36,175 bases of DNA, from assembly GCF_001646945.1 (NCBI RefSeq), contig NZ_LUTV01000003.1:646273-682447 (forward strand), given 5' to 3'. The DNA is from Endozoicomonas ascidiicola. GTDB taxonomy: Bacteria > Pseudomonadota > Gammaproteobacteria > Pseudomonadales > Endozoicomonadaceae. The position numbers and the translations under genes were made by a program. Under the pieces are notes generated by a model. The model was not told the origin of the DNA, searched no databases, and saw nothing but the letters and a program-made list of their open reading frames with translations. Shown here piece by piece: positions 14,661 to 33,922 of the stretch. How positions within the stretch are numbered: position 1 is the stretch's first letter; each line of letters begins with the position of its first letter.

Positions 14661-15830
14661 TCAACGCATCGGTCTTGGCATCCCAAGCCCGAACTGAGCG
14701 ATCAGTTCACGTTGTATCTCATTAGTGCCGCCGCCAAAGGTCAGAGTCACCGAAGCACGAACTTCATACTCCAATTCACCCATCAAGAGGCTGGCTGCAG
14801 AACCCTGGCGCACCATGGCATTGGCGCCAACAATATCAATCAGCCGGCGTAGAATCTCAATGGCTGACTCAGAACCATAAACCTTGGTCGATGATGCCAG
14901 AGCGATATCCATACGCCCTTGCTCCAGATCCGCAGCAATACGGAAGTTAATCATCCGCATGGCTTCTAGCCGTGCGTAGCATTCAGCCAGTGCGGAACGA
15001 ACCCAGGCTTTATCAGTGGCACGCTTACCGAACTCATCTTCAGACCGAGCCCATAGATAAACTTTCCGGAATAGTCCAGCGACTTTATCAGACCAGGAAC
15101 CGAGGCCAAGACGTTCATGATTTAACTGAGAGGTGATCAGCCTCCAACCGCCATTTAATTCACCAACCAACATCTCCTTTGGTATACGAGCATTGTCGTA
15201 ATAGGTTGCTGCCGTTGGATTAGACGTCGTTGGAATTACGGTTTGTGAGAAGCCTTCTTCTTTGGTATCCAGAATCAGTATGGAAACACCCTTGTGCCGT
15301 GGAAGGTCGGGGTCAGTTCTGGCGGCGAGCCAGATGTAATCCGCGGCTTCAGCACCTGAGGTCCATAACTTACTGCCATTGACATAAAAGTGATCGCCAT
15401 CCAGAGTAGCGGTAGTTTTCAACGTCGCCAGATCAGAGCCTGCGCCTTGTTCGGAATAACCGATGGAAAATATCAGCTCACCGTTGGCAATGCCAGGCAG
15501 GAATTTCTCCTTCTGAAGCTCAGTACCAAACTGCATCAACGCCGGGCCCACGGTGCTGATGGTAACAAAAGGCAGTGGTGCGCCGGCAATGTTGGCTTCT
15601 TCAAAAAAGATCAGTTGCTCAGTGGCTTGATAACCCTGACCGCCATGTTCTTTTGGCCAACCAACCGCCAGCCAGCCATCTTTACCCATTTGACGAATGA
15701 CACTCCGATACTCATCACCGCCTTCTTTACCGCGCAGTGATGCCTTCAACTCCGGCGTCATCAGCTCTGTAAAATAGTCTCGTATCTCCCGGCGCAGCTG
15801 ATGCTGTTCCGGTGTCAGATCAACAAACAT
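14661..15830 (-). CDS. Acyl-CoA dehydrogenase, ChsE2/FadE29-like subunit
   Basis: A 389-residue FAD enzyme with full acyl-CoA dehydrogenase layout: helical N-terminus, middle beta domain (EQGAGSDLATLKTTA, NGSKLWTSGAEAADY) and C-terminal helical bundle ending in TFGGGTNEIQRELIAQFGLGMPRP. Glu239 in LNHERLG occupies a position close to the catalytic glutamate described for mycobacterial FadE29 (Glu241). In the igr system this subunit pairs with a second, degenerate subunit in an alpha2beta2 enzyme that desaturates a steroid propionyl-CoA side chain. The other acyl-CoA dehydrogenase of this operon (17438-18571) is the likely partner. A near-perfect GAGGAGGT lies just before the ATG, in the 10-bp gap after the aldolase gene. 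Substrate assignment is inference. Confidence 0.85.
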   Translation of the reverse strand: MFVDLTPEQHQLRREIRDYFTELMTPELKASLRGKEGGDEYRSVIRQMGKDGWLAVGWPKEHGGQGYQATEQLIFFEEANIAGAPLPFVTISTVGPALMQFGTELQKEKFLPGIANGELIFSIGYSEQGAGSDLATLKTTATLDGDHFYVNGSKLWTSGAEAADYIWLAARTDPDLPRHKGVSILILDTKEEGFSQTVIPTTSNPTAATYYDNARIPKEMLVGELNGGWRLITSQLNHERLGLGSWSDKVAGLFRKVYLWARSEDEFGKRATDKAWVRSALAECYARLEAMRMINFRIAADLEQGRMDIALASSTKVYGSESAIEILRRLIDIVGANAMVRQGSAASLLMGELEYEVRASVTLTFGGGTNEIQRELIAQFGLGMPRPMR

Positions 15831-15840
15831 CCGAACCTCC

Positions 15841-17016
15841 TCAGGCTGCGCTTAAAATCAGGCCACTGGTCGGCACACCGGTGCCGGCAGTAACTAATAC
15901 ATTTTCTACGTCGTCTACCTGGTTGATGGCAGAGCCACGCACCTGACGAACCGCTTCCGCAACACCGTTCATCCCGTGAATATAAGCTTCACCCAACTGA
16001 CCACCATGCGTGTTAATAGGCAGCGTGCCACCTCGGGCATGATGACCATCCATTACATAGTTGCGAGCTTCGCCTCGTGGTGCAAAACCAAACTCTTCCA
16101 GCTGGGTCAATACGAATGGCGTAAAGTGGTCGTATATCACAGCTGTCTGGAATGCATCTGGGCCAAGGCCGGATTGTGCATACAGTTCTTTGGCAACCAC
16201 GCCCATTTCTGGCAGGCCGGTAATGTCGTCACGATAGAATGAGGTCATGATCTGCTGTCCCTGTGCAATGCCCTGAGAACCCGCTTTTATAACCACCGGC
16301 TTTTGCTTCAGATCTTTCGCTCTTTCAGCGCTGGTGATCACCATGGCCACAGCACCATCGGACTCCTGACAGCAATCCAACAGATGCAGTGGTTCACAAA
16401 CCCAGCGTGAATTCTGATGATCTTCCAAAGTAATTGGCTTCTCATAGAAGAAGGCTTCAGGGTTAGTTGCTGCAAAGTCACGGGCAGCGACGGCTATACG
16501 ACCAAAGTCTTCTGAAGTGGCGCCATAGGTATGCATATAACGCTGGGCAAACATGCCTACCCAGGCTGCTGGCGTATGAAAACCGTGGGGCATGTACCAG
16601 CCATAGTTCACATTTTCAAAGGTCGGTGTGTTGGCAAAACCGTAATCGCCAGAACCAAAGCGATACCAGGAACGTTCATTCATCGCTCGATAAACGACAA
16701 CCGTTTTTGCAACGCCAGTGGCAACCGCCATGGCAGCATGAAGAATGGGGGCACAGGCAGCACCGCCGCCGTGAGGAATCTGGGAGAAAAACTTCACATT
16801 ATTGCAGCCCAGCAGTCGCGCGATTTCGTATTCCGGCACCTTATCAACGGAATAACTGCTGAAGCCATCCACTTCTGATGGATCAATACCTGCATCCTGC
16901 AATGCCGCCAGAGTGGCTTCCATGGCCAGTCGAAGCTCCGTGCGACCGGAATTTTTTGAAAACTCTGTGGCGCCGAGTCCGGCAATGGCAGCCCGGCCGC
17001 TGAGTGATTTATCCAT
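15841..17016 (-). CDS. Thiolase-fold lipid-transfer protein/aldolase, Ltp2-like
   Basis: A 391-residue thiolase-superfamily protein of the SCP-x/lipid-transfer type (AAIAGLGATEFSKNSGRTELRLA at its start; VYDHF-like and NTHGGQLGEAYIHGMNG near the end). In the helix normally headed by the thiolase nucleophile (HGGGAACAPILHAAMAVATG), my hand alignment puts Gly85 at the nucleophile position and Cys88 three residues later, so thiolysis is unlikely. In the mycobacterial igr operon, Ltp2 has lost the thiolase cysteine and works with the DUF35 part of ChsH2 as a retro-aldolase that cuts propionyl-CoA from the steroid side chain. Both partners are in this operon. It starts 21 bp after the small MaoC gene, with a weak AAGAGAA ribosome site. 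Confidence 0.85.
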   Translation of the reverse strand: MDKSLSGRAAIAGLGATEFSKNSGRTELRLAMEATLAALQDAGIDPSEVDGFSSYSVDKVPEYEIARLLGCNNVKFFSQIPHGGGAACAPILHAAMAVATGVAKTVVVYRAMNERSWYRFGSGDYGFANTPTFENVNYGWYMPHGFHTPAAWVGMFAQRYMHTYGATSEDFGRIAVAARDFAATNPEAFFYEKPITLEDHQNSRWVCEPLHLLDCCQESDGAVAMVITSAERAKDLKQKPVVIKAGSQGIAQGQQIMTSFYRDDITGLPEMGVVAKELYAQSGLGPDAFQTAVIYDHFTPFVLTQLEEFGFAPRGEARNYVMDGHHARGGTLPINTHGGQLGEAYIHGMNGVAEAVRQVRGSAINQVDDVENVLVTAGTGVPTSGLILSAA

Positions 17017-17037
17017 TATTTTTATTCTCTTAATCTC

Positions 17038-17457
17038 TCAATCGTTTTTGGGCAGCACGACAGAAACAGTGCCCGTGACGTGATTTCCCATGGAGTTTTT
17101 GCCTTTCAGGGTCACTTCCACCGCATTCTTTTCAGGGCTTACATCCGATATCTCACCGTTGAGCACCATGGTGTCTCCGGGATAATTTGGCGCTCCCAGT
17201 TTGATCTTGAGGTCATTGAAGCGGGCAGTTGGGCCAGCCCAGTCTTCCACAAAACGCTGAACCAGTGCGCTGGTGGTGAGAATGTTCATAAAGACATGAG
17301 GGGAACCCAACTCCTGAGCTGCGTCCTTGTCCAGATGACCCGGAAAATAATCACGGGTGGCAATAGCGCCAGCAGTGATCAGGGTGGAGGTAATCGGGAC
17401 TTCCATTTTTGGTAGCCTGTCACCAAGGCTGACGTCATTAAACTGTCGTGTTTTCAT
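17038..17457 (-). CDS. Small MaoC-like enoyl-CoA hydratase subunit, ChsH1-like
   Basis: A 139-residue single hot-dog protein. Asp36 and His41 in ATRDYFPGHLD have the five-residue spacing of the hydratase dyad reported for mycobacterial ChsH1 (Asp29/His34). It would supply the active site of a heteromeric hydratase with the MaoC part of the fusion protein at 18575-19570. The start is placed at ATG 17457 (MKTRQFND), with GGAAG ten bases upstream; ATG 17466 is another choice with that site too close. The start overlaps the last 20 bases of the upstream acyl-CoA dehydrogenase gene, which indicates translational coupling. An apparent longer frame to 17544 only overlaps that gene further. Confidence 0.85.
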   Translation of the reverse strand: MKTRQFNDVSLGDRLPKMEVPITSTLITAGAIATRDYFPGHLDKDAAQELGSPHVFMNILTTSALVQRFVEDWAGPTARFNDLKIKLGAPNYPGDTMVLNGEISDVSPEKNAVEVTLKGKNSMGNHVTGTVSVVLPKND

Positions 17458-18571
17458 CGAGGTCATACTTCCATCCCAGTTTATCGTTGATTGCCAGCCA
17501 GTCCCCCAGCTTCTCCAGAACAGCCCGGCTGCCGCCCAGGCCAAGACTCAATGCACGGCTCCAATAAAGAAAGCGGTGAATCGGATAGGTAATATCCACG
17601 CCAAAACCACCGTGAACGTGTTGAGCTTTATGCCCGATACTGTGGCCGGCTTCGCAGGCTTGCCAGGCAACGGCCAATGCTTCTGACTGTGCGGGCAGGC
17701 CTGCATCCAGTCGGTAACACAGGTGCCATAGGCTGGAGCGAAGTGCCTCAAGCGCAATATGGCAGTCGGCCATGGTCATCTGTACTGCCTGAAACTGAGC
17801 AATAGGGCGACCAAACTGAACTCGCTCGTTGATGTACTCAACAGTACGTTTAATTTGTTGACTACTGACGCCTAACTGAATGGAGGCTTGTGCAGCAATA
17901 CTGTGAACTTCCAGCCATTCCACTGCTTCTACGGATAAAGCATGGGTGCGTGGGATAATCACGTTATCCAGAGCCAGGTCTGCAATGCCTTCACCTTGAG
18001 TGAAAACACCTTCGACTTTCTGAATGCCTTTAGCAGAAAGGTCTAAAATCGCTGGGAGAATGCCCTCAACCGTTTCAATAGAAATAATGGCAATATTGGC
18101 GCTATTGCCCTCGGGTAAGCCCTCGACACGACCATTCAGCAAATATCCATCGGGTGTCGTGTCTGCTTTCACGGTAACGTCACGTGCGCGGGTTTGATCC
18201 GCTTGAGATAGCGTAAACAAAAGCTCAGCAGAGGCAGCGCTGTGCACCAGAGGGTAAAGCGCTTCATTGCCAAATTTGGCAATGGCTGCGGCGGCAATCT
18301 GATGGCGCCACAGGGGAACCTGACCTAACGCCGCGCCTTGAGCTTCCAGAACAAGCATCAGTTCCGTCATACCCAGTTCACTACCACCAAATTGTTCGGG
18401 TAGATAAAGGGCGTGGAGTCCGGTTTCGATGCAGGATTGCCAAAGGTCATCCATGGTCGTTTTTCCAGATTCATCAAAGGCAATCAGTGCCTCATCAGAA
18501 CCGCTGTCGCTAAACAGCGAAGTGGCCATATCGGCAATGGCTCGCTGGTCATCATTCAGTGAGAAATCCAT
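17438..18571 (-). CDS. Acyl-CoA dehydrogenase, ChsE1/FadE28-like subunit
   Basis: A 377-residue acyl-CoA dehydrogenase relative with a weakly conserved middle domain: the usual flavin-contact motif is replaced by SQADQTRARDVTVKA, while the C-terminal QHVHGGFGVDITYPIHRFLYWSR keeps the FAD-binding signature. Such divergent subunits occur in the alpha2beta2 dehydrogenases of steroid catabolism (FadE28 with FadE29 in mycobacteria), where only one subunit holds the catalytic base. It is probably the partner of the 389-residue dehydrogenase at the operon end. It starts 3 bp after the MaoC-DUF35 gene, and its end overlaps the ChsH1-like start, so the three genes are tightly coupled. Confidence 0.82.
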   Translation of the reverse strand: MDFSLNDDQRAIADMATSLFSDSGSDEALIAFDESGKTTMDDLWQSCIETGLHALYLPEQFGGSELGMTELMLVLEAQGAALGQVPLWRHQIAAAAIAKFGNEALYPLVHSAASAELLFTLSQADQTRARDVTVKADTTPDGYLLNGRVEGLPEGNSANIAIISIETVEGILPAILDLSAKGIQKVEGVFTQGEGIADLALDNVIIPRTHALSVEAVEWLEVHSIAAQASIQLGVSSQQIKRTVEYINERVQFGRPIAQFQAVQMTMADCHIALEALRSSLWHLCYRLDAGLPAQSEALAVAWQACEAGHSIGHKAQHVHGGFGVDITYPIHRFLYWSRALSLGLGGSRAVLEKLGDWLAINDKLGWKYDLDENTTV

Positions 18572-18574
18572 GGA

Positions 18575-19570
18575 TTAACCCCGTGCCTGCGCATTGCTAT
18601 CGATGATCCGGAACATGGGCAGAGTCAGCTCTTCATCAAAGGTCTGGAACTCTACCTGCACCCGTTGTCCGATTTTAAGGTCATTCTTGTTATCAACGCC
18701 GACCAGACCGGCAGGTACACGAACACCTTCGTCCAGCTGAATCAGGCCAATGGGATTGGGGTAATCAAATGGTGGTACTTCCGGGTAGTGCATCACAACA
18801 AAGGAGTAGAGCTCTCCACTGCCGGAAACAACTTGATAGTCCAACTCAAAAGATTGGCAGTGCATGCACACTGGCGCAGGTGGATGCTGCAGCTCATCAC
18901 AAGTTTTGCAGTGCTGAATCCGTAACTCTTTAGCTTCGCAGCCCTCCCAGAAGAAACGGGTGTCATCGCTGATACCCGGTTTTGGTCGTTTGATTACCGG
19001 CACTTCAGCAGGTGCGCTGTTTTTTTCTGGCTGCTGGTGTGGTTTGAATTTGAATACCCGGAACAGTAATTCTCCAATCTTTTCATCATCACTGGCGGCT
19101 GAGGTGTTTTCGGAAAAGAACGTCATCACCAGCGTGACAAAAAAGCCGGTTCCGAGCGCTGTGGTTTTTTCATCGCCCACTTCCGTCAGCTTTGTGACGT
19201 AGTACAGTTTTTCCCCCATAGTGATATAGCGGTCAAAACTCAGTTCCGAGTTAACGGCGACAACCGCGGGATAACCCTGCTTTTCAATCAGTTTCAGCGC
19301 ACCATAAGGATTCTCATCAGTCGATCCCTCTGGATAGTTGTTCTGATGCAAACCTTCCAGACACCAGGCTTGCAGCATCGCCGGTGGTGCAACAATGCCG
19401 TCAAATTCGGTCTGTTTGGCGTACTCTTCATCGGTGTAGAGTGGGTTATCAATCCCCATCACCTCACACCATTGGCGAACCATGGGCGCGTTGACTTTAT
19501 CCCATGCATAAACACGGCCATATTCCCGTCCGACCATGGCCTTCAATTCGGATAACCATTCGCTAGCCAA
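18575..19570 (-). CDS. MaoC-DUF35 fusion protein, ChsH2-like
   Basis: A 331-residue two-domain protein. Residues about 10-165 are a MaoC hot-dog domain; its hydratase motif reads GIDNPLY, so the usual Asp and His are Ile40 and Tyr45, meaning no activity of its own. After a linker, about 203-331 form a DUF35 domain with a zinc ribbon (Cys221, Cys224, Cys235, Cys238 in HCKTC...VCMHC) and an OB fold (GELYSFVVMHYPEVPPFDYP). This is the architecture of mycobacterial ChsH2, which pairs with ChsH1 for hydration and with Ltp2 for aldol cleavage. The start is TTG at 19570: AGGAGA stands exactly six bases upstream. An in-frame ATG at 19600 would encode that ribosome site and has none itself. First gene of the operon. 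Confidence 0.87.
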   Translation of the reverse strand: MASEWLSELKAMVGREYGRVYAWDKVNAPMVRQWCEVMGIDNPLYTDEEYAKQTEFDGIVAPPAMLQAWCLEGLHQNNYPEGSTDENPYGALKLIEKQGYPAVVAVNSELSFDRYITMGEKLYYVTKLTEVGDEKTTALGTGFFVTLVMTFFSENTSAASDDEKIGELLFRVFKFKPHQQPEKNSAPAEVPVIKRPKPGISDDTRFFWEGCEAKELRIQHCKTCDELQHPPAPVCMHCQSFELDYQVVSGSGELYSFVVMHYPEVPPFDYPNPIGLIQLDEGVRVPAGLVGVDNKNDLKIGQRVQVEFQTFDEELTLPMFRIIDSNAQARG

Positions 19571-19637
19571 GTTATCTCTCCTGTTCTTATTTTTTTTCAT
19601 TGGAAAGCAGTCTAATGATCAGGCCAACCTCATAGCT

Positions 19638-19653: not shown

Positions 19654-19714
19654 TGTTGCTCGAAGGCTCTATTACGAGTATTTACATAAGTCTTAAAAGG
19701 TGTGGAGTGCGAGC

Positions 19715-20500
19715 ATGTCGCAGACAGAAGAGAACGTATTATTGCTGGATTATCCGGAAGAAGGTGTTGCCCGACTGACGCTTAACCGTCCAGATGCGAC
19801 TAATGCGCTGAGTTTGGAATTGCAAAAGCAACTGTCTGAACAATTCACCGCACTGGCTGTGGATAACACGGTTCGTTGTATTATTTTGACCGGTGGAGAT
19901 GAGGTATTTGCCGCCGGTGGCGATATCACCACCATGATGGATGCAGATCCTATTGAAATCTATCAGCGCCATACTGAACGACTGTGGGCTCCCATTCAGC
20001 ATTGCCCAAAACCTGTGATCGCTGCGATTTGTGGTTACGCTTTTGGTGGCGGCTGTGAACTGGCAATGCATGCAGATATTCTTGTGGCCGGGGAAGGCGC
20101 CAGTTTCTGTCAGCCTGAGGTTCGTATTGGCATCATGCCGGGAATAGGCGGCACTCAACGTTTATTAAGAGCTGTCGGCAAAGCCAAAGCCATGCAAATG
20201 GCATTGACCGGAAAACCTATTTCAGCAAAAGAAGCCTGGGTTTCTGGTTTGGTCAGTGAATTAGTGCCGGATAAGGATGTTCAGGAGAAAGCTCTGAGTA
20301 TCGCCAGAAATATTGCCCGTATGCCGCCTCTGGCGGTTGAACAAATTAAGGAAGTGATCTTGTTGGGCATGGATGCCTCATTGGAAAGTGCGCTGGCAAT
20401 GGAGCGTAAAGCCAATGCCATGCTGTTTGCTTCCAGAGATCAGCAAGAAGGGATGACCGCTTTTCTGGAAAAACGTCATCCGAAGTTTAATGGTCAATAA
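19715..20500 (+). CDS. Enoyl-CoA hydratase (crotonase family)
   Basis: A 261-residue crotonase. It hydrates 2-enoyl-CoA thioesters in beta-oxidation. Oxyanion-hole segments are FAAGGDI (66-71) and AFGGGCELAM, and the two acid/base residues Glu115 and Glu135 (GGCELAM, QPEVRIG) are 20 residues apart as in classical enoyl-CoA hydratases (Glu144/Glu164 in rat). MPGIGGTQRL is also conserved. The ATG at 19715 is chosen over GTG at 19700 because GGAG lies 7 bases upstream of it. It is divergent from the MaoC-DUF35 operon and may act on the same pathway or in ordinary fatty-acid oxidation. Confidence 0.9.
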   Translation: MSQTEENVLLLDYPEEGVARLTLNRPDATNALSLELQKQLSEQFTALAVDNTVRCIILTGGDEVFAAGGDITTMMDADPIEIYQRHTERLWAPIQHCPKPVIAAICGYAFGGGCELAMHADILVAGEGASFCQPEVRIGIMPGIGGTQRLLRAVGKAKAMQMALTGKPISAKEAWVSGLVSELVPDKDVQEKALSIARNIARMPPLAVEQIKEVILLGMDASLESALAMERKANAMLFASRDQQEGMTAFLEKRHPKFNGQ

Positions 20501-22332: not shown

Positions 22333-23532
22333 TTAAGCTTCTGCTTCTTCAGGTAGCTCTTCGTGGGCTGTTTGTCCCAGAGCGGCAACACTGTTGAGGA
22401 ATATACGAACAAGGTCGGATTGTCGCTTGATTCCGGTTTTGGAGAAAATGGAGCGTAAATGAGCGCGAGCCGTATTACGACGAATGCCCAACGCTTCAGC
22501 AGACTCTTCCAGCGAATTACCGTTGGCCAGCTGTAAGGATAGTGCTGTTTCTGCAGGTGTCAGGCCAAACAGCTTCTTGGCAATATCACTGCTGGCCTGA
22601 GAGGTGCCGGCGGAGTCCCGAATATAAACAATAGCGGATGAGTTATTGTCGTGGTCTGACATATCAAACCGGGGGATCATTTCTATTACCAAGCCCAGAT
22701 TCACTTCGCCCGATGGCCGTGCGACCGACATTGCCAGAGGAAGTCCAGGGGATTTTGGCTCTTCGGCTCGGTCAAAAGCCTCTTTGACTAGCTTCTTTAG
22801 CGCTTTGTTGTCACTTGGGTAATACGCTTCCAGTCGTCCGGCGATGACTTTAAAGCCATCACCAGATTCCAGAATATGACGCGCAAACAGATTCTGCTCA
22901 AGGATGTTGCCCTGTCGATCAATAATCAGCGTGGCAATGGAGAGTTTGCCGATCGCTTGCGAATACAGGTTTCGCAGAGACTGGTTATGAACCAAACGAT
23001 TATTGACGTTTAGTGCGCGGCGTAAATGAGGAACGATAAGCTCGCAGAATTCACGATCTTCTTTTGAAAAATCGTCACTGCTTTCCGGGCGGGTGATTCG
23101 GAAGCGGAGCCTTTCACCATTGTTCACAGTGATATCAACGGACATAACATGATAGACGTCTTTCTGCGCACACCAGTGAATACGGTAATCACTGTTGCGC
23201 CATTCCCCTTCGGTCATTAAGTCAGCAACAGTGAACACTGTGTCCGGTTCACGACCGGCAAATGGCGTGAGTTGATGAATATATGGGCGATACTGCACAG
23301 CCACTTCATTATCAAAAGTGCCGCCAACCACAATCATCAGGCCAAGTTCTTCTTCGTTCTGATGCTTGGGAGTTTTGAGAATCAGGGTGACGTAATTGGC
23401 TTGGAATATGGATTTCAACACCCGAAGCGGTGTTTCCCAGCCGGTCTCCCCTTGAGCTGCGTCGTATATAAGACCAATCAGAGAGTCGTACTGATCAAAA
23501 TCTTGAGTGATGTGCGTCAAAGCGGACCTCAT
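22333..23532 (-). CDS. LuxR-type HTH transcriptional regulator
   Basis: A 399-residue regulator. The C-terminal LuxR helix-turn-helix occupies about 321-383 (FGLTPAETALSLQLANGNSLEESAEALGIRRNTARAHLRSIFSKTGI, read in parts). The region about 190-310 looks like a PAS-type sensor (IATLIIDRQGNILEQN), and the N-terminal 180 residues have no recognised family. It is upstream of msrC in the same direction. Its target is unknown; regulators of this architecture often sit beside the catabolic genes they control, so it is a candidate controller of part of the surrounding region. An acidic tail (EELPEEAEA) ends the protein. Confidence 0.85.
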   Translation of the reverse strand: MRSALTHITQDFDQYDSLIGLIYDAAQGETGWETPLRVLKSIFQANYVTLILKTPKHQNEEELGLMIVVGGTFDNEVAVQYRPYIHQLTPFAGREPDTVFTVADLMTEGEWRNSDYRIHWCAQKDVYHVMSVDITVNNGERLRFRITRPESSDDFSKEDREFCELIVPHLRRALNVNNRLVHNQSLRNLYSQAIGKLSIATLIIDRQGNILEQNLFARHILESGDGFKVIAGRLEAYYPSDNKALKKLVKEAFDRAEEPKSPGLPLAMSVARPSGEVNLGLVIEMIPRFDMSDHDNNSSAIVYIRDSAGTSQASSDIAKKLFGLTPAETALSLQLANGNSLEESAEALGIRRNTARAHLRSIFSKTGIKRQSDLVRIFLNSVAALGQTAHEELPEEAEA

Positions 23533-25601: not shown

Positions 25602-26681
25602 TTAAACTGCTTTTTCGTAATCGTTATAACCTTTCTCTCCCGGCGTATAGAGTGTTTTCCGGTCGAATCGAGTTAACGGGATACGCTCTTTGATTCGGTA
25701 AACCAAATCAGGGTTAGCAATAAAGTGTCGTGCGAAAGACACCGCATCACCTTGACCTGCGCTGATCGCCTGATTGGCGGCGTCCGAATCGAAGTTGTCG
25801 TTGAGAATAATTGAACCGCTGAAGTGAGTTTTGGCTAACTTAAAGGCATCAATATGTTCAACGGGAGCACGCATAATATGAAGGTAAGCCAGATTGAGGG
25901 GGGCAATCTGGCGGAGCAATTCAATGTGGCTGCCTGCCGAATCGTCGTCTTGAGTATCATTAAAGGCATTGCCGGGATTCATTCTCAAGCCTACACGACC
26001 ACTGCCAAACACTGAGGCCATGGCTTTAAGACAGTCAGCAGCAAACCGTGCCCGGTTTTCAACGCTACCGCCAAACTCATCGGTCCGATGGTTGGTTCCG
26101 GAACAGAGAAACTGCATGGGCAGGTAGCCACTGGTGCAGTGAAGCTCTACGCCGTCAAAGCCCGCAAGTTTGGCGTTTTCTGCTGCCACTCGATGTTCTT
26201 CGATCACCAATTGTACGTCACTAGTCGACAGTTCCCGTGGCATATCAAATGGCTGCATGCCAGCCTGATCTGTATAAAGTTCACCATGAGCTTGAATGCT
26301 TGAAGGAGCTACTGTTTCTACACCTGCAGGTTTGATCTTGTTGCTACCAATACGGCCAGCGTGCATCACCTGAAGCACAATCTTGCCACCATTGGCATGC
26401 ACGGCATCGGTCACCTTTTTCCAGGCAAGCACCTGTTCTTCGCTTTGGATACCCGGTTGACGGCAATACGCCTGACCGGTCACCACCGGCCATGTTCCTT
26501 CCGCAACAATCAATCCTGCCTGAGCACGGTCGGCGTAATATTGAACCATCAGTTCGTTAGGCATGCCGTCAGCCGATGCCCGGTTACGTGTCATGGGTGC
26601 CATGACCACACGGTTTTTCAGTTCAATATCGCCAATGGTGACTGGTGATAATAATGAGAGTGAATTATGCAAAGTAGTCAC
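25602..26681 (-). CDS. Old yellow enzyme family NADH:flavin oxidoreductase with altered active-site pair
   Basis: A 359-residue FMN-dependent ene-reductase. Motifs: LKNRVVMAPMTRNRA, LQVMHAGRIG, HRTDEFGGSVENR and LRMNPGNAF. In the substrate pocket, His181 and Tyr186 keep the PETN-reductase positions, but the second ligand-binding residue (His184 there, Asn in most others) is Ser184 in ELHCTSGYLPMQF. Enzymes of this family reduce activated C=C bonds, including steroid enones in some cases. The start is GTG at 26681, one base after the stop of the upstream SDR gene, so the two are translationally coupled. Activity on a steroid or aromatic intermediate is inference. Confidence 0.88.
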   Translation of the reverse strand: MTTLHNSLSLLSPVTIGDIELKNRVVMAPMTRNRASADGMPNELMVQYYADRAQAGLIVAEGTWPVVTGQAYCRQPGIQSEEQVLAWKKVTDAVHANGGKIVLQVMHAGRIGSNKIKPAGVETVAPSSIQAHGELYTDQAGMQPFDMPRELSTSDVQLVIEEHRVAAENAKLAGFDGVELHCTSGYLPMQFLCSGTNHRTDEFGGSVENRARFAADCLKAMASVFGSGRVGLRMNPGNAFNDTQDDDSAGSHIELLRQIAPLNLAYLHIMRAPVEHIDAFKLAKTHFSGSIILNDNFDSDAANQAISAGQGDAVSFARHFIANPDLVYRIKERIPLTRFDRKTLYTPGEKGYNDYEKAV

Positions 26682-26682
26682 C

Positions 26683-27456
26683 TCAATCCAGCGCCGTAAT
26701 CAATACGGCAGAGCGCCCGCCATCAACAGGCAGTTCCGTGCCGGTAATGTATGAAGCATCATCGCTGGCCAGAAACGTAATGGCGCTGGCCAGTTCTTCT
26801 GGCTGCCCAACCCGGCCCATAGGAATCAGCTTTTCTGTGTTCTGACGGCTGTTGTCGTCAGAAAGCATGCCCGCAGTGGCTGGTGTTTCTACAATGGCAG
26901 GGGTAATCACATTGACCCGGATACCGTCTCTGGCACCTTCTGCTGCAGCAGCACGGGAGAAGTTAACAACGGCGGCCTTGGATGCGGAATAGCCAGCCAT
27001 ATAAGCCGTGCCCAAAGCACCACAAATGGATGAAAGGTTAATAATGGCACCACCACCGGATTGGCGCATTAGCTTCATGGCGGTTCGTGTGCCCCAAAAG
27101 GTGCCGTCAACGGAGGTAGTGAAGTTTTCATGCCACTGTTCTGTGGTCATGTCTTCAATGCCACCCCAAGTGAAAGCCATGGCGTTATTCACCAGAATAT
27201 CCAAACGACCGTAGTCATTAGAAACTTTCTCAAGGGCTTGAATAAACTGTGTTTCGTTGCTGACATCCGCGACCACAGAGTTCACAGAACCCCCTTGTTG
27301 TTTGATCCGCTTCTCAACGGCCAGTAGTGGGTCCAGTCGCCTGCCGCAGATGATGACAGTAGCGCCTTCCCTGGCGAAACGTTCGGCTGTGGCAGCACCA
27401 ATGCCGCTGCCACCCCCAGTAATAAAGGCAATTTTGTTTTGCAGTGAACCTGCCAT
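26683..27456 (-). CDS. Short-chain dehydrogenase/reductase
   Basis: A 257-residue classical SDR. Cofactor motif TGGGSGIG (13-20), NNAMA in place of NNAG, catalytic Ser in INLSSICGALG and the GYSASK Tyr-x3-Lys pair are all present, with the C-terminal TGTELPVDGG. CGRR after the second strand suggests NADP(H) preference (inference). The substrate is unknown; hydroxysteroid dehydrogenases and 3-hydroxyacyl-CoA reductases share this fold. It is the first gene of a two-gene unit with the old-yellow-enzyme homologue. A MITE-like repeat begins 31 bp upstream of its start and may separate it from its original promoter. Confidence 0.88.
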   Translation of the reverse strand: MAGSLQNKIAFITGGGSGIGAATAERFAREGATVIICGRRLDPLLAVEKRIKQQGGSVNSVVADVSNETQFIQALEKVSNDYGRLDILVNNAMAFTWGGIEDMTTEQWHENFTTSVDGTFWGTRTAMKLMRQSGGGAIINLSSICGALGTAYMAGYSASKAAVVNFSRAAAAEGARDGIRVNVITPAIVETPATAGMLSDDNSRQNTEKLIPMGRVGQPEELASAITFLASDDASYITGTELPVDGGRSAVLITALD

Positions 27457-27655: not shown

Positions 27656-28789
27656 TTAACCCGCGTCTTTCAGGTAAGTGTCCATAAACGACAGCATGCG
27701 TTGTTTCGCGGCTGCATCTGCTTTTTTGTCGCTACCAATGACATAGCCTTTGCCGATGCACTCAGGAGCATCCACCATCACCATAGCGCGAGCGAAGGCT
27801 CTTTCGTTTCGGCCAGCGTCTTGCGGAGCGGTGGCAGCAGGCTGACCATTAATCAAAGCAGTGCCTGTTTTTTCATCGAAAGAAAAAGAGCAATTAGTGA
27901 TGTAAGGGAAGTCGTAAAGATCCCGTGGGCGGTCAGACTCCCATGCGTGCCCAGCACCGGGAATCAGCAGTGTTTCGACCGGGCCATTTTTGGCAATGTC
28001 GCCATGGACCTGTTCGCACACATTGATATCAACGCTGTTATCGTCGTCCCCGAAAATAGCAAGATAGGCGCCGCCAGTCGTTTCTGTGGTTCCCAGCGTT
28101 TGATGGCAGGGTCCGTACACATCGATATGGGCGGCAAAGGGTGGGACTTCAGGCGCAATAACCGCTTTGACTCTGGGATCCAGAGCGTAGCGGGTGACCA
28201 TGCCACCGTATGAGTATCCAGTGACGGCAATTCGACTGGCATCAATAGCGGGGTGAGTTCCCAGTACTTTGAGCGCAGAATAGGTATCCACCAGAATGTC
28301 TGTTTCTGAGGCCGATAGCGTCTTCATCAGATAGGTGGAGTCTTTGGTGGCTCCACGAACTGAGTAGTAATCGATAATCAGTGATGCAATGCCATTCTCA
28401 GCAAACAGCTGTGCATAAACGGGTTCCCGGTTGGGGTCTATACCACCACTGCCGTGCAGAATGATGATCGCCGGTACAGGATTTTCAGCCGATGCACCCT
28501 TAGGCAGAACCAGTTCGCCTTTACCAGTGTGTTGCAGCGTGTTATCAAAATTCGTCAGCAGTTCTGAGAAATCGTAAGGGCTGCGTGTTGAAAAGTAGAT
28601 ATCGCCGGACTGATCTTCAGTCAGTGTCGTTTCAGGCGATGGCAGTTCCGGTAAATCCGGCAGGTCAATGGACGACGTCCAGGGCAGGCCTATACCGGCA
28701 TACTCGGTCTCAATGTGATAGATAAAACCTGCACCGATAGTGGTGATAACCAGGCCGGAAAAAAGCAGAGCCTTTTTTAACCGTGTCAT
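27656..28789 (-). CDS. Membrane-anchored alpha/beta hydrolase, dienelactone-hydrolase-like
   Basis: A 377-residue hydrolase. A basic N-terminus and hydrophobic segment (about 7-24) act as signal anchor. Oxyanion motif HGSGG (112-116), nucleophile Ser193 in GYSYGG, Asp at 248-250 in FGDDD and His281 in GAGHAW form the expected catalytic triad. The layout resembles dienelactone-hydrolase/acetyl-xylan-esterase-type proteins. It may cleave an ester in the periplasm, for instance on a sterol or lipid conjugate (inference from the catabolic surroundings). The MITE copy ends 5 bp from its stop codon and so forms its 3' untranslated region. Confidence 0.82.
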   Translation of the reverse strand: MTRLKKALLFSGLVITTIGAGFIYHIETEYAGIGLPWTSSIDLPDLPELPSPETTLTEDQSGDIYFSTRSPYDFSELLTNFDNTLQHTGKGELVLPKGASAENPVPAIIILHGSGGIDPNREPVYAQLFAENGIASLIIDYYSVRGATKDSTYLMKTLSASETDILVDTYSALKVLGTHPAIDASRIAVTGYSYGGMVTRYALDPRVKAVIAPEVPPFAAHIDVYGPCHQTLGTTETTGGAYLAIFGDDDNSVDINVCEQVHGDIAKNGPVETLLIPGAGHAWESDRPRDLYDFPYITNCSFSFDEKTGTALINGQPAATAPQDAGRNERAFARAMVMVDAPECIGKGYVIGSDKKADAAAKQRMLSFMDTYLKDAG

Positions 28790-29021: not shown

Positions 29022-30245
29022 TTATACAAAAGGATCCATATTGGGCAAGCCAAGCATAACGGCGCCGTGGGCACGTGCATAGGCATCTGCGTTGTTAGCA
29101 ATATGAGCACGAGCCTGCTTCAGGTCGCGATTAATGCGCTCAATGGGGTTTGATTTTCTCAATCCGGCACCAGCGCTGGCACGAAGCAGTTCATCCGCGA
29201 GTTCGGCACAGATTTTTGGCACCCGTGCAGATTGCGCGCGTTGTAACAGCCGCTCTTCCACTTCCATGGTGGTGCCGTTCATGGCGTTATCCACAATGCG
29301 TTGATAGTTTCTGGTCAGTACCAGCTTAAGCTGATCGGACGCAATCATGGCTTCAGTCACCGCCATTTGTGCATTTACGTCTTCCGCCGTCTTTGCACCG
29401 TGCTTACCAATATGAGCGGCGGCACGGGTGCGGAACTCATTTACGGCGCCATCCAGGGCACCCATGCAGGCGGAAGATACTGCACGCTGGAATACCTGAA
29501 TGAACGGGATTTTGTAAAGCCAGCTTGAATTGGTCTCGCGGCCCGGACAGCCGGCATCGCTGTAATTATTAGTGCGTTGAGTACGGTGCTCAGGCACAAA
29601 AACATCTTCAACGACTATGTCATGGCTGCCGGTGCCGCGCAGGCCGTGGACATCCCAGTTTTGCTCAATCTTGAAATCCGAAGCAGGCAACAGGAAGGTG
29701 GTGTGTTCCAGACCTTCTTCACCGTTGGGTTTTGGCAGCAGGCCGCCGAGGAAAATCCATGAGCAATGTTCGACACCGCTGGAGAATTCCCATTTACCAG
29801 AAAAACGATAACCGCCTTCTACCTTGGTGGCTTGGCCTGTAGGCATGTAGGTGGAGGCAATCAGCGTTGCCGGGTTATCAGCAAGCACTTCCTGTTGTGC
29901 TTTTTCCGGAAATAGAGAGAGCTGCCAGTAGTGAACACCGATGACGCCAAAGATCCAGGCAGTGGACATACACCCTTCTGCCAGCGCCATTTGAGCTTTA
30001 TAAAACACGCGCGGATCCATTTCAGAACCGCCCCAACGTTTAGGCTGGAGAATTCGGAATAGACCTGCTTCGATAATTTCTTTCACCGACTCAACCGGTA
30101 CCGAACCGGTTTCGTCTGTCATTTTTGCTCGATCTTTGAGGCGGGGAGCAATTTCTCTGGCGGCCTTGACCAGCGCGACGGCTTCCGGGGTCATGTAAGA
30201 GTCGTCCCCGTCCAGCATGTCGAAAAGATTGGTTTGTTCACTCAT
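29022..30245 (-). CDS. HsaA-like flavin-dependent monooxygenase (acyl-CoA dehydrogenase fold)
   Basis: A 407-residue group D flavin monooxygenase. Family features: FRILQPKRWGGSEMDP, TAWIFGVIGVHYWQLSLFPE, KWEFSSGVEHCSWIFLGG, VHGLRGTGSHDIVVEDVFVP and a C-terminal helical domain ending in GLPNMDPFV. By eye it resembles mycobacterial HsaA, which hydroxylates the phenolic A ring of the 9,10-seco-steroid intermediate, and C2-type 4-hydroxyphenylacetate hydroxylases. Such enzymes need a separate flavin reductase (HsaB type), which is not in the window. ATG 30245 is chosen because AGAGGG lies about 8 bases upstream and MSEQTNLFDML is hydrophilic; the frame continues to 30338 without a ribosome site. 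Confidence 0.85.
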   Translation of the reverse strand: MSEQTNLFDMLDGDDSYMTPEAVALVKAAREIAPRLKDRAKMTDETGSVPVESVKEIIEAGLFRILQPKRWGGSEMDPRVFYKAQMALAEGCMSTAWIFGVIGVHYWQLSLFPEKAQQEVLADNPATLIASTYMPTGQATKVEGGYRFSGKWEFSSGVEHCSWIFLGGLLPKPNGEEGLEHTTFLLPASDFKIEQNWDVHGLRGTGSHDIVVEDVFVPEHRTQRTNNYSDAGCPGRETNSSWLYKIPFIQVFQRAVSSACMGALDGAVNEFRTRAAAHIGKHGAKTAEDVNAQMAVTEAMIASDQLKLVLTRNYQRIVDNAMNGTTMEVEERLLQRAQSARVPKICAELADELLRASAGAGLRKSNPIERINRDLKQARAHIANNADAYARAHGAVMLGLPNMDPFV

Positions 30246-30491
30246 CGTTAAAGCCCTCTTTATTATTTTGACTTTTTTGGCCGAAAGATTGCGGCTTATT
30301 CTGGCCGACTTGATTGGATACTGACTACAGGTTTCCACATGGTACAGACAAGGCTCATCGTTAATATGGACTATCGCCAGCTCATGGAAAGTGATGTGAA
30401 TGATGGAGTTACTACATTTGGACGATGCTGGTTTTACCGTGGGGGCAATAATGCGTGAGAATCAAAAATAAGAATAAAAGAGGAATTAATT
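30246..30491. other. Divergent promoter region between the monooxygenase and Ycf48-like genes
   Basis: This 246-bp gap should hold promoters for both directions. A 39-codon plus-strand frame (ATG at about 30340) is present but shows no recognised family and is probably chance. No clear operator palindrome was seen. Confidence 0.4.
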
Positions 30492-31460
30492 ATGCGAGCA
30501 GCCATTGGCATTGGTATTTCGATTGTTGTTGCCGCAGCCGGGATTTTCGCATTTTCCCCACGCATTCCTGAGCCTCTGGCTGGGCGTAATATTCCTATTG
30601 ATAATATGAACATTACCAGCCTGAGTGGCAGTGCTGCTGGCCTCGTTGCCGCTGGCGAGCTAGGACATATTCTGGTTTCTAAAGACGATGGGCAGAGTTG
30701 GCATTTTGCAGAGATCGATAAGCAGCGCCACGCCCTGATCACCCGCTTACACTTTCAGAATGACACTCTGGGTTTTGCCACCGGTCATGAAGGTTGGATT
30801 CTGAGAACCGAAGATGGCGGTGAGAGTTGGTCTGAAGTGTCGTTTGATAAAGAAAGAAATGAACCAATTCTGGATATAAAACAGCTGCCTTCTGGTCGTT
30901 GGGTCGGCATTGGTGGTTTTGGCAAACTCGTGAGCTCAGATGATCAGGGAAAGCGTTGGAATATCGAGCCTCCGCCCAATGGTACCGATTGGCATCTTAA
31001 TGCCTTGTTGTCTTCAGAAGATGCTCAATCCTGGTTGATTGCCGGTGAAGCGGGCACGGTGTTCCGTTCACTGGATCAAGGTGAAAACTGGGAGCCGCTC
31101 CCTGAGTTTTATCATGGTTCTTTTTACGGCGGTTTGCATTTGGGCGGTGAGAACTGGCTGCTATATGGCATGCGAGGCAATTTGTTCCGCACCAGTGATA
31201 ATGGCGACAGCTGGCAGAAGCTCGATTTTACTATTCCTATTTCAATTTTTGCCCATGAATTTTTAAACGACGGAAGTATTCTCCTTGCTGGCCAAGGGGG
31301 AATGATACTTCGTAGTAGCGACAATGGTCAGTCATTCCAAATGGTTTACCGGGGTGGGCGAATGTCGGTAACCGATCTACAGCCTCTTGAAAATGGCGAC
31401 TTAATAATGAGTAGCGATAGCGGTGTGCAGTCTGTTGCTCTGTCTAATCTGCTTAATTGA
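30492..31460 (+). CDS. Ycf48-like beta-propeller protein, exported
   Basis: A 322-residue protein with an N-terminal hydrophobic signal or anchor (about 4-22) followed by repeated propeller blades with BNR/Asp-box motifs: SKDDGQSWHF, TEDGGESWSEV, SDDQGKRWNI, SLDQGENWEPL, TSDNGDSWQKL and SSDNGQSFQMV. Related proteins are annotated as Ycf48-like and, in many proteobacteria, stand next to MMPL/RND transporters in hydrophobic-compound catabolic clusters. A periplasmic partner for the transporter encoded next is the likely role. GAGGAATTAATT precedes the ATG. Its stop codon is 29 bp before the transporter start. Confidence 0.85.
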   Translation: MRAAIGIGISIVVAAAGIFAFSPRIPEPLAGRNIPIDNMNITSLSGSAAGLVAAGELGHILVSKDDGQSWHFAEIDKQRHALITRLHFQNDTLGFATGHEGWILRTEDGGESWSEVSFDKERNEPILDIKQLPSGRWVGIGGFGKLVSSDDQGKRWNIEPPPNGTDWHLNALLSSEDAQSWLIAGEAGTVFRSLDQGENWEPLPEFYHGSFYGGLHLGGENWLLYGMRGNLFRTSDNGDSWQKLDFTIPISIFAHEFLNDGSILLAGQGGMILRSSDNGQSFQMVYRGGRMSVTDLQPLENGDLIMSSDSGVQSVALSNLLN

Positions 31461-31489
31461 TAACAATAATAATTTTCAGGATCTTTCTT

Positions 31490-33922
31490 ATGGCTAACCA
31501 ATCCAACAACTCGCCCGGATCCTTTGTGGATCGATTTGTCGATGGCATTGCCAGGCTACTCATATCAAAACGACGCTTCTTTGGTGTGTTATTTATTTTA
31601 ATGACCATTGGTTTTTCGTATTCAGCGATGCAGACCCGCTTCGATGCCGGTTTTAATAAATTGATTCCGATGAATCATGATTACATGAAGGCCTTTCTTG
31701 ATCATGGCCCTAAGTTTTCAGGTGCCAACCGAATCATGGTGAACCTGCAGTGGAAAGGTGAAGGAGATATCTATAACCCTGTGTTTATGGCGCAGTTAAA
31801 GAAAGCGACAGATGAAGTTTTCTTTACGCCGGGCGTTAACCGAACCACTGTCAGATCACTCTATACGCCAGAAGTCCGCTATGTAGAAGTCACAGAATTT
31901 GGTTTTATGGGCAGTGAAGTGATTCCATCCCGCTTCACCGCAGACGAGGCAGGATTATCAACCGTACGCTCGAATGTGAATAAATCCGGGCAAGTCGGAA
32001 ACCTGGTATCTACGGATTTGACATCTGCCATGGTGCAGGCAGAGCTGTTGGAGTTTGATCAGGCTACTGGAGATAAAACAGATTATCGGGCAGTAGCCGC
32101 ACATTTAGAAAGCATTCGTACGGCGCTGGCGAATGACAATATTGAAGTAAACATCATCGGTTTTGCCAAGGTGATGGGCGATGTCATGGACGGCTTGGTC
32201 AATGTATTAATCTTTTTTATAGTAGCTTTTGGCATCACCATGTCGCTGCTGTGGGCTTATTCCCGCTCACTTAAACTGACTCTGCTGGCTATTGCTGTGG
32301 CTCTGTTGCCGGTCATCTGGCTGATGGGGACGTTGCCATTGATTGGTTACGGCATTGATCCTATGTCCGTACTGGTTCCCTTTTTGATTTTCTCCATTGG
32401 TGTTTCCCATGCTGTGCAGATGACCAACACTTGGAAGCAGGATGTGCTGATGGGCATGACGCCAATCGACGCTGCTGAGAGTGCATTTCGTAAGCTGGCT
32501 ATTCCGGGCACTGTTGCATTGTTAGCCAATGCGCTTGGTTTTATGGTGATTATGGTGATCGATATTCCCATGGTTCATGAGCTGGGTGTGACGGCTTGCC
32601 TGGGTGTTGCCATGATGATCGTCACCAACAAAATGTTTATGCCGATTATTCTTTCCCACTTGAAGCTTGAGAATATGGCATTCAGTGGGCCTGATCGTCC
32701 TGATGTAAAGCACCCAATCTGGTGGAAACTTTCTGCATTGGCAACACCAAAAGCCGCCATGATCAGCTTGGCATGCATGTTGGTATTGCTGGTGGGTGGA
32801 ACGTGGCAGTCCCGTTCACTGCTGACAGGCGATATAGGCTCAGGTGTGCCCGAGTTACGTGCAGAGTCCCGGTACAATAAAGATAATGATGAGATCGCCC
32901 AGAACTACCAGATTGGTATGGATGTGTTGTCGGTGTATCTGGAAACCAGTGGCCGTGAAGAAGCCTGTCTGGACTGGGAAGTCATGAACGCTGTTGACCG
33001 CTTTGATATGCATATGCGGGGTGTCGATGGGGTTCAGTCGGTACGTACGGTCGCCGGGCTCAGCAAACTATATGTCTCTGGAAATAATGAAGGGAACCCA
33101 CGCTGGAGAACCTTGCAGAGAGATCACAATGCCTTGGTTGCCGGTGCTCGTGCGGCGCATCCGCAACAGGGTTTGAACGACAATGGTTGTCAAATAATCA
33201 ATATGACGGTGTACCTGGACGATCATCAGGATGCCACACTGAAGCATGTATCCGGTGAAATTCAGAAATACCTTGCTGAGCAATCCGTATCCGATGCCAC
33301 GTTCCGTATGGCGGGTGGTAATGCCGGAGTTGCCGTAGCGACCAATCAGGCGGTTGAGACGGCAGAAGCTCAAATGCTGACCGCCATCTTTAGTGCAATC
33401 ACCTTACTTTGCTGGATCACCTTCCGCTCATGGCGTGGGGTATTGTGTGTGGTTGTTCCGCTGATTCTGGTGACCATACTTTGCAATGCGTTGATGTCAC
33501 TGTTGGGTATTGGACTTAAAGTGGCTACATTGCCTGTTATTGCTTTGGGTGTGGGGGTTGGTGTGGATTACGGTATCTATATCTATGAAAGTTTGCAGCA
33601 CAGCCTCAAACAAGGGCTTAGCCTTCGGGAATCTTTCTACGAAGCTATGTATCGACGTGGGACAGCTGCCGTCTTTACGGCCGTAACCATGTCTATCGGG
33701 GTTGGCACCTGGGCGTTTTCTGCCCTAAAGTTTCAGGCGGATATGGGTATTCTGCTGGCGTTTATGTTCCTGGTGAATGTGCTGGGTGCGATCTTTCTGT
33801 TGCCGGCTCTGGCCTGTTGGTTGGATGTGAAACCTGAACGTAAGGTAAACAAAACCATCAAGGTGGAGACATCTAAAGATACTGGTGGCGTGTTTGAGGC
33901 ATCAGAGATGCCCGTTAAATAA
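31490..33922 (+). CDS. RND superfamily (MMPL-type) transporter
   Basis: An 810-residue inner-membrane protein of two homologous halves, each with one membrane helix, a large periplasmic domain of roughly 160-190 residues and a five-helix bundle. The first bundle contains VLVPFLIFSIGVSHAVQMTN, the second VIALGVGVGVDYGIYIYESL, the signature with buried acidic residue used for proton coupling. Lipid- and sterol-linked members (MmpL, HpnN, NPC1/Patched) share this layout. With the Ycf48-like protein before it, transport of a hydrophobic substrate is likely; direction is not known. ATG 31490 is preferred (CAGGA eight bases upstream) over an ATG at 31457 that overlaps the preceding gene. Confidence 0.9.
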   Translation: MANQSNNSPGSFVDRFVDGIARLLISKRRFFGVLFILMTIGFSYSAMQTRFDAGFNKLIPMNHDYMKAFLDHGPKFSGANRIMVNLQWKGEGDIYNPVFMAQLKKATDEVFFTPGVNRTTVRSLYTPEVRYVEVTEFGFMGSEVIPSRFTADEAGLSTVRSNVNKSGQVGNLVSTDLTSAMVQAELLEFDQATGDKTDYRAVAAHLESIRTALANDNIEVNIIGFAKVMGDVMDGLVNVLIFFIVAFGITMSLLWAYSRSLKLTLLAIAVALLPVIWLMGTLPLIGYGIDPMSVLVPFLIFSIGVSHAVQMTNTWKQDVLMGMTPIDAAESAFRKLAIPGTVALLANALGFMVIMVIDIPMVHELGVTACLGVAMMIVTNKMFMPIILSHLKLENMAFSGPDRPDVKHPIWWKLSALATPKAAMISLACMLVLLVGGTWQSRSLLTGDIGSGVPELRAESRYNKDNDEIAQNYQIGMDVLSVYLETSGREEACLDWEVMNAVDRFDMHMRGVDGVQSVRTVAGLSKLYVSGNNEGNPRWRTLQRDHNALVAGARAAHPQQGLNDNGCQIINMTVYLDDHQDATLKHVSGEIQKYLAEQSVSDATFRMAGGNAGVAVATNQAVETAEAQMLTAIFSAITLLCWITFRSWRGVLCVVVPLILVTILCNALMSLLGIGLKVATLPVIALGVGVGVDYGIYIYESLQHSLKQGLSLRESFYEAMYRRGTAAVFTAVTMSIGVGTWAFSALKFQADMGILLAFMFLVNVLGAIFLLPALACWLDVKPERKVNKTIKVETSKDTGGVFEASEMPVK

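Follow-up and report, generated by a model that had tools for sequence, protein, structure and literature searches.

A probable proteobacterial-type C3 side-chain operon of steroid degradation in Endozoicomonas ascidiicola

Five adjacent genes of Endozoicomonas ascidiicola raise two questions: do they encode the enzymes that cut a three-carbon side chain from a steroid, and which substrate would reach them? The genes lie on a stretch of 36,175 nucleotides (hereafter the window) from positions 646,273 to 682,447 of contig NZ_LUTV01000003.1, RefSeq assembly GCF_001646945.1 (C13:646273-682447 in our numbering). The genome is a draft of 6.13 Mb in 36 contigs, 99.9% complete and with some masked stretches. 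A first-pass annotation, made from the sequence alone, had likened the genes to the actinobacterial igr operon, which we take to comprise chsE1, chsE2, chsH1, chsH2, ltp2 and cyp125 (the last as that annotation gives it). We conclude from homology that they very probably form a proteobacterial C3 side-chain operon (chsH2-chsE1-chsH1-ltp2-chsE2), in a member of the Endozoicomonadaceae that carries a steroid gene set of the aerobic 9,10-seco type. Every reaction and all subunit pairing we infer from homologues. In the terms used for Stutzerimonas stutzeri Chol1, the genes are shy2, scd2B, the gene of the second hydratase subunit, sal2 and scd2A.

The operon consists of five minus-strand open reading frames (ORFs) at 14661-19600, all present and open where the first-pass annotation placed them. 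They are transcribed in the order MaoC-DUF35 fusion, acyl-CoA dehydrogenase (ACAD), small MaoC, thiolase-fold protein and second ACAD, with products of 341, 377, 139, 391 and 389 amino acids, respectively. Their description as coupled genes also holds, as spacing nowhere exceeds 21 bases: chsH2 and chsE1 are 3 bases apart, chsE1 and chsH1 overlap by 20 bases, and the last two gaps are 21 and 10 bases. The length of 139 residues is counted from an ATG near 17457, the most likely start of chsH1; the automatic ORF call extended upstream to a TTG at 17544. A scan of the region for sigma-70 promoters (three found, 6.0 expected by chance) and terminator-like signals (11 found, 7.3 expected) was uninformative.

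When the proteins were searched against the Protein Data Bank (PDB), igr-type proteins were the top solved-structure matches for all five (table 1). Chain 6ok1_B is the ChsH2 DUF35 domain, 4wnb_A the ChsH2 MaoC domain, 4wnb_B is ChsH1 and 6ok1_A is Ltp2. The entries 4x28 and 6wy8 themselves say acyl-CoA dehydrogenase; we take both to be ChsE1-ChsE2, 4x28_A presumably being M. tuberculosis ChsE2 and 6wy8_A (entry name acyl-CoA dehydrogenase Tcur3481) ChsE1 of T. curvata. Each of 4wnb, 4w78, 6ok1, 4x28 and 6wy8 has two different chains that match two partner proteins. These matches are far beyond chance, with E-values from 7e-26 to 2e-163 and the same gene order at 46 further loci. Pfam and PDB matches together recover all five subunit types (ChsE1, ChsE2, ChsH1, ChsH2 and Ltp2), which is the igr-like composition that had been proposed, and Ltp2 alone among the five exceeds its curated NCBIfam cut-off. 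The ChsH2-type fusion has an N-terminal MaoC-type domain without the D-x4-H dyad and a C-terminal zinc ribbon and OB fold (DUF35). The ChsE1-like protein has no Pfam middle-domain match at 1e-3, in line with the word 'degenerate' used for it previously.

The catalytic residues were compared with those of characterized relatives. T. curvata Ltp2 is reported to use Tyr294, within a YDHF motif, and Tyr344, whereas the C5 aldolase Sal has YDCY and Gln352 (PMC12329534). The window Ltp2 has Tyr295 in YDHF and Tyr345, which align with the T. curvata pair, and both tyrosine motif patterns are present in 89 of the 89 Ltp2 rows of the tree described below. A Sal-type (C5) identity for the thiolase-fold protein was considered and rejected on this motif, set against that of CtSal (YDCY and Gln352). 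The cysteines of the window Ltp2 (protein P0002) are at positions 71, 88, 207, 215 and 216, none of them inside the YDHF motif, and Cys88 is also found in T. curvata Ltp2. In alignment with the genome's own FadA, the active-site Cys95 of FadA falls in an unaligned stretch and lies, by eye, opposite Gly84; Sal2 and its homologues are reported to be without the thiolase active-site cysteine (PMC8399759). An Asp/His dyad is confined to the small MaoC, as the first-pass annotation stated, at 36/41 counted from the ATG near 17457 (38/43 of P0003). The fusion carries Ile and Tyr at the same spacing, numbered I50/Y55 from the ATG at 19600 or I40/Y45 if the start is at 19570. Finally, Glu239 of the ChsE2-like protein, earlier placed near the FadE29 catalytic position, is inside a QLNHE motif that aligns with the QLNHE of 4x28_A, and we take this glutamate to be the ChsE2 catalytic base.

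Relatives of the operon were collected by an Ltp2 scan of genome contigs, in which 586 of 591 candidate stretches encode relatives; the best 80 loci were kept, and their gene order was mapped with the five proteins as queries. The order chsH2-chsE1-chsH1-ltp2-chsE2 is exact in 45 of these 80 (Comamonas included) and on the Vibrio alfacsensis plasmid pVa1, while 20 have chsE1-chsE2-chsH2-chsH1-ltp2 and the remainder have other orders or are broken at contig ends. The first-pass annotation was therefore right that the order differs from the mycobacterial one, but the arrangement is not unusual: it is the usual beta/gamma-proteobacterial order, and is therefore uninformative on substrate. Neighbour maps were drawn for 21 loci. 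All 15 same-order loci among them have a divergent crotonase homologue (65-77% identical) upstream of the operon, as in the window; most of the 15 have a short-chain dehydrogenase between the two, which the window is without. In five of the 21, the first gene mapped beyond chsE2 is a homologue of the ligase CoAlig2; C. testosteroni CNB-2 has its StdA2-type ligase in this position (PMC8399759), and we counted the match in favour of the steroid assignment.

The side-chain module has already been described in Proteobacteria (PMC8399759, PMC12502768), and comparison with the known systems places the new operon among them. ORF40-44 of C. testosteroni TA441 encode the same five proteins in the same order, and disruption mutants assign ORF41/44 to the dehydrogenase, ORF40/42 to the hydratase and ORF43 to the aldolase; the discussion of that paper also mentions many unassigned homologues in Pseudomonadota (PMC12502768). 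The homologues in a Comamonas sp. metagenome-assembled genome (locus L038, not TA441) are 60, 46, 61, 81 and 73% identical in operon order. TA441 is reported to have Sal- and Shy-like ORF54/55 inside the same mega-cluster, whereas none was found in the E. ascidiicola genome, where the ligases and the HsaC- and HsaD-like genes lie apart from the operon. S. stutzeri Chol1 has the same functional set (scd2AB, shy2 and sal2), with Sal2 reported essential for C3 cleavage; this bile-acid degrader possesses Sal1, Shy1 and Sad as well (PMC8399759). The M. tuberculosis igr operon shares the five subunits, and 4x28, 4w78 and 4wnb are the best or near-best solved relatives of the window proteins; its order is different, and no P450 was found in the E. 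ascidiicola genome. The pVa1 cluster (in locus L087, 59898-101067) has the same order at 52-84% identity and the same divergent crotonase and regulator gene, but is plasmid-borne, with an extra ACAD pair after the operon and ETF genes nearby. On plasmids of fish-associated Vibrio the same side-chain operon is accompanied by ETF genes, a regulator gene and a homologue of HsaA.

Genes for the steroid rings are found in the same genome. KshA lies approximately 4 kb left of the window, with 197.6 bits to PF19298 against a cut-off of 23.3; the same search gave a single match, not over the cut-off, across 14 control genomes. The neighbouring segment, C13:629.6-642.4 kb, carries a KstD-like gene, another FAD dehydrogenase, a ligase of the FadD3 family that exceeds its NCBIfam cut-off, an HsaB-like reductase and a CasG-homologous ligase, while contig C1 carries HsaC-like and HsaD-like genes and a second ligase. 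In a congener (G022), the operon and the same steroid genes, 96-100% identical, form one block of approximately 44 kb (its contig C1, about 69-113 kb), with the side-chain operon next to metE at the start, DUF1329 and DUF1302 genes at the end and a flanking bactofilin gene at 66%. In E. ascidiicola these genes are split into three separate segments across two contigs. The window amidohydrolase and the C1 aldehyde dehydrogenase have no match in the G022 block stretch. Masked stretches and, by eye, transposase-like remnants flank the KshA-KstD block (L083, L085 and L084:16720-19944), and these flanks are possibly linked to the break-up. Across the 12 genomes of the genus, Ltp2 is present in four and KshA in five; KshA occurs in all four genomes with Ltp2 and in one of the eight without it.

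Two acyl-CoA ligases bear on the question of substrate. In strain CNB-2, the C3 ligase StdA2 (RS06820) directly follows Scd2A (RS06815), and the C5 ligase (RS06840) follows the C5 ACAD pair (PMC8399759). Comamonas L038 has the same layout: the C1 ligase of E. ascidiicola shares 52% identity with the first gene mapped beyond the L038 chsE2, and the C13 ligase 49% with the gene after the second ACAD pair there. Because these positions mirror the CNB-2 layout, sequence similarity suggests that the C1 ligase is StdA2-like and the C13 ligase StdA1-like.

The remaining genes of the window that could be assigned are listed in table 1. Homologues of the LuxR-like regulator stand near the operon in loci L009, L024 and L087 (55%) and in congeners, and the pVa1 relative is annotated as a helix-turn-helix transcriptional regulator. 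Elsewhere in the window, at 7642-9699, a protein resembling MutS-type ATPases (GPNAAGKST motif, by eye) appears to start with a signal peptide, which is unusual in a relative of mismatch-repair proteins.

Table 1. Features of the window, with the evidence on which each assignment is based
Feature	Coordinates	Strand	Evidence
ChsH2/Shy2-like, operon gene 1	18575..19600	-	Pfam FAS1_DH_region, zf-ChsH2 and OB_ChsH2_C above cut-offs; PDB 6ok1_B 5e-29, 4wnb_A 2e-25
ChsE1/FadE28/Scd2B-like acyl-CoA dehydrogenase subunit, divergent	17438..18571	-	PDB 6wy8_A 1.6e-55, next 4x28_D 9e-36
ChsH1-like MaoC hydratase subunit	17038..17457	-	PDB 4wnb_B 7e-26; Asp36/His41
Ltp2/Sal2-like retro-aldolase	15841..17016	-	PDB 6ok1_A 2e-163; NCBIfam PRK07855 678 bits (cut-off 469); Tyr295 and Tyr345; tree
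ChsE2/FadE29/Scd2A-like acyl-CoA dehydrogenase subunit, last operon gene	14661..15830	-	PDB 4x28_A 1.9e-120; Glu239
Enoyl-CoA hydratase (crotonase family), divergent	19700..20500	+	NCBIfam PRK08138 above cut-off; conserved neighbour
LuxR-like regulator	22333..23532	-	Homology and annotation of plasmid relative; no Pfam match at 1e-5
Amidohydrolase	23682-25415		Window gene
Old Yellow Enzyme-type oxidoreductase	25602..26681	-	NCBIfam; also in congener block
Short-chain dehydrogenase, possible hydroxysteroid dehydrogenase	26683..27456	-	NCBIfam; congener block
Dienelactone-hydrolase-fold protein	27656..28789	-	Pfam DLH
HsaA/TesA2-like 9,10-secosteroid monooxygenase	29022..30248	-	NCBIfam HsaA 358.8 bits, best match, below cut-off 450
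YCF48/BNR-like protein of steroid block	30492..31460	+	Pfam; congener block
RND/MMPL-family transporter of steroid block	31457..33922	+	Pfam; congener block

Taken with the location among steroid-ring genes, the steroid enzymes that are the best relatives of the operon proteins support the igr-type desaturation, hydration and retro-aldol chemistry that had been expected. In the pathway we envisage, the StdA2-like ligase of contig C1 would convert a C22 steroid that bears a three-carbon side chain at C17 to its CoA thioester, into which ChsE1-ChsE2 would introduce a C17-C20 double bond. ChsH1 and the inert ChsH2 MaoC domain would together add water at C17, and Ltp2, held on the ChsH2 DUF35 domain, would release propionyl-CoA by retro-aldol cleavage to leave a 17-ketosteroid. 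KstD, KshA, HsaAB, HsaC and HsaD would then open rings B and A.

Several results weigh against this reading. The only NCBIfam matches of the four operon proteins other than Ltp2 are to non-steroid families such as PimC, AcrC, HadB and BbsA, all below cut-off. Among the ring genes, KstD (583.8 bits of a cut-off of 788), HsaA (358.8 of 450), HsaB (128.3 of 230), HsaC (286.9 of 450) and HsaD (174.1 of 400) all fall short of their NCBIfam cut-offs and are therefore named as homologues only. The HsaB-like protein scores better to p-hydroxyphenylacetate hydroxylase reductase (205.7 versus 128.3 bits), and the HsaD-like protein is approximately equal to BphD (175.1 versus 174.1 bits). The best family of the C1 ligase is PRK08279, a long-chain acyl-CoA synthetase family whose cut-off it exceeds, and it reaches only 171.5 of 900 bits for CasI. 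The entry enzymes give a further set of negatives, drawn from one draft assembly with masked stretches near KshA. PF00067 found no P450 in the genome, although the same search was positive in seven of 14 control genomes; the absence of a cyp125 partner, remarked on by the first-pass annotation for the operon, thus extends to the whole genome by this profile. For Sal, an Ltp2 query found itself only and PF22691 gave Ltp2 and a weak FadA match, whereas the Sal-like proteins of L023 and L034, taken as controls, score 161.7 bits to PF22691. That second PF22691 match was considered as another aldolase system and rejected, being a protein with an ordinary FadA-type thiolase sequence (named by eye). 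For Shy, a zf-ChsH2 search of the genome, which had no control, found the operon's own fusion protein as the sole match. Without a P450, Sal or a second zf-ChsH2 protein, entry from cholesterol or bile acids is left unexplained.

How do these points bear on the alternatives? One is that the operon acts on a branched-chain or aromatic acyl-CoA that is not a steroid, since ACAD and MaoC folds are general and four of the five proteins have the sub-cut-off non-steroid matches described above. We consider this very improbable, as the nearest solved relatives of all five proteins are steroid enzymes and their genes belong to a steroid block; a fatty-acid or aromatic operon was rejected as a candidate on the same two counts, the best solved relatives and the steroid-type neighbours. 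The substrate is a harder matter. The routes for cholesterol, cholic acid and ergosterol share the step that the operon performs (PMC12502768), and its presence therefore does not single out one substrate. No P450 and no Sal was found, which leaves both the cholesterol route that starts with a P450 and the C5 bile-acid route of proteobacteria incomplete in terms of known enzymes, and the earlier suggestion that the operon points to use of host sterols goes beyond these results.

The same enzymes could nevertheless finish a sterol (cholesterol or phytosterol) pathway, in which an unrecognised non-P450 hydroxylase would open the isoprenoid side chain and ordinary thiolases would then shorten it to C22. 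Sterols are abundant among animal steroids, and a FadA-type thiolase is present in the genome. Use of cholesterol has been reported for E. acroporae (PMC12491435, citing a preprint), and Sterolibacterium is known to hydroxylate the side chain without an oxygenase (PMC11061730). Set against this are the missing P450 and the position of Ltp2 in the clade of Pseudomonas/Comamonas-type degraders, and we regard a sterol substrate as unlikely. Degradation of bile acids, from hosts or neighbours that have them, with a thiolase replacing Sal in the C5-to-C3 step, seems to us doubtful to a similar degree. Lineages that include bile-acid degraders hold the closest relatives among the best 80 loci, and the CasG/StdA1-type ligase homologue resembles its counterpart in Comamonas L038, as noted above. 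This C13 ligase reaches 334.9 bits for the CasG/StdA1 type (cut-off 750) and 355.5 of 476 for its best family, a general long-chain ligase; between it and the MBL gene there is no ACAD pair, unlike in Comamonas. No Sal was found by a search that detected the controls, and synthesis of C24 bile acids is not known from invertebrates. The operon may instead serve C22 steroid acids only, received after partial degradation by others or from oxidised steroids of the host, with a pathway truncated by loss or acquisition. Such a role would suit a genome in which the C3 module is complete and accompanied by a StdA2-like ligase, with no C5 aldolase or P450 detected, while retention of the CasG/StdA1-like ligase speaks against it, and the absences come from a single, if 99.9% complete, draft assembly with masked stretches; we hold this last possibility tentatively.

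We proceeded to analyse the distribution of Ltp2 across 37 genomes of the Endozoicomonadaceae. Nine had a match, partial and at 27-28% in two (G042 and G046), with a copy at least 64% identical in the other seven. The lineage of the window's Ltp2 is found in three genomes (G000, G021 and G022), and a second lineage, 64-68% identical, in five (G013, G021, G029, G034 and G035), G021 having both. In a tree of 89 Ltp2 rows, for which bootstrapping was not fully settled and supports are rough, the window Ltp2 clusters with those of congeners (100/98); Thalassotalea and Vibrio join next (93/86, on a branch without a star), all within a beta/gamma-proteobacterial clade of 36 rows (99/99). The second lineage forms a separate clade (100/99), weakly placed with Halieaceae and Cellvibrionaceae (85/74). 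The existence of two lineages, with one genome holding both, suggests on the evidence of the tree that they were acquired separately. Second-lineage loci L059, L109 (G035), L111 (G034) and L112 (G013) have neighbours that include chsH2-, chsE1- and chsH1-like genes; beyond ltp2, the available sequence (for L111 only approximately 1.5 kb) gave no close match to chsE2. The Ltp2 of G034 is identical to that of Endozoicomonas sp. Hp36 (L059). Ribonucleotide reductase of the window is 88% identical to its Hp36 counterpart and no more than 78% identical to those of ten other genomes compared, in agreement with a place in the Endozoicomonadaceae. In G035, approximately 20 kb from the second-lineage ltp2, two thiolase-like genes (L110:6894-10154), one of them 29% identical to Ltp2, follow a protein with a DUF35-like zinc ribbon (by eye). 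The steroid side-chain trait is therefore patchy in the family, with one lineage in three of 37 genomes and the other in five.

The literature on steroid genes in this family is divided. A 2025 paper states that no steroid-utilisation genes were found in any Endozoicomonadaceae genome, although use of cholesterol or testosterone has been reported (PMC12491435); a 2016 paper describes testosterone-degradation clusters in three Endozoicomonas species, with synteny to those of testosterone degraders (PMC4781883). The two contradict each other. The 2016 paper also gives two further clusters (III/IV) of 'fatty acid beta-oxidation' genes, which may include the side-chain operon. Metagenomes yielded little: eight from tunicates were without hits and one from coral had a low frequency (PMC5790920). 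Among the open-licence PMC papers listed, compared by title, start of the abstract and term counts, with preprints outside the scope, we found none that pairs Endozoicomonas with Ltp2 or the operon.

The enzyme module itself is known, and the value of the finding is therefore its location in the Endozoicomonadaceae. The host bacterium is presumably animal-associated, judging by its family. A bolder proposal, which we think rather improbable at present, is that some animal symbionts of the Endozoicomonadaceae combine a C3-only side-chain cutter with an upper ring pathway, lack the known C5/C8 entry enzymes and turn C22 steroids, or steroids oxidised by the host, into C19 17-ketosteroids. With the entry enzymes missing, the substrate becomes a concrete question, and the operon and the approximately 44-kb congener block name specific genes for knock-out or assay. 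If the proposal is true, they would provide candidate genes for some of the cholesterol-to-androgen conversion reported for Endozoicomonas, and would make the hypothesis of hormone exchange genetically testable.

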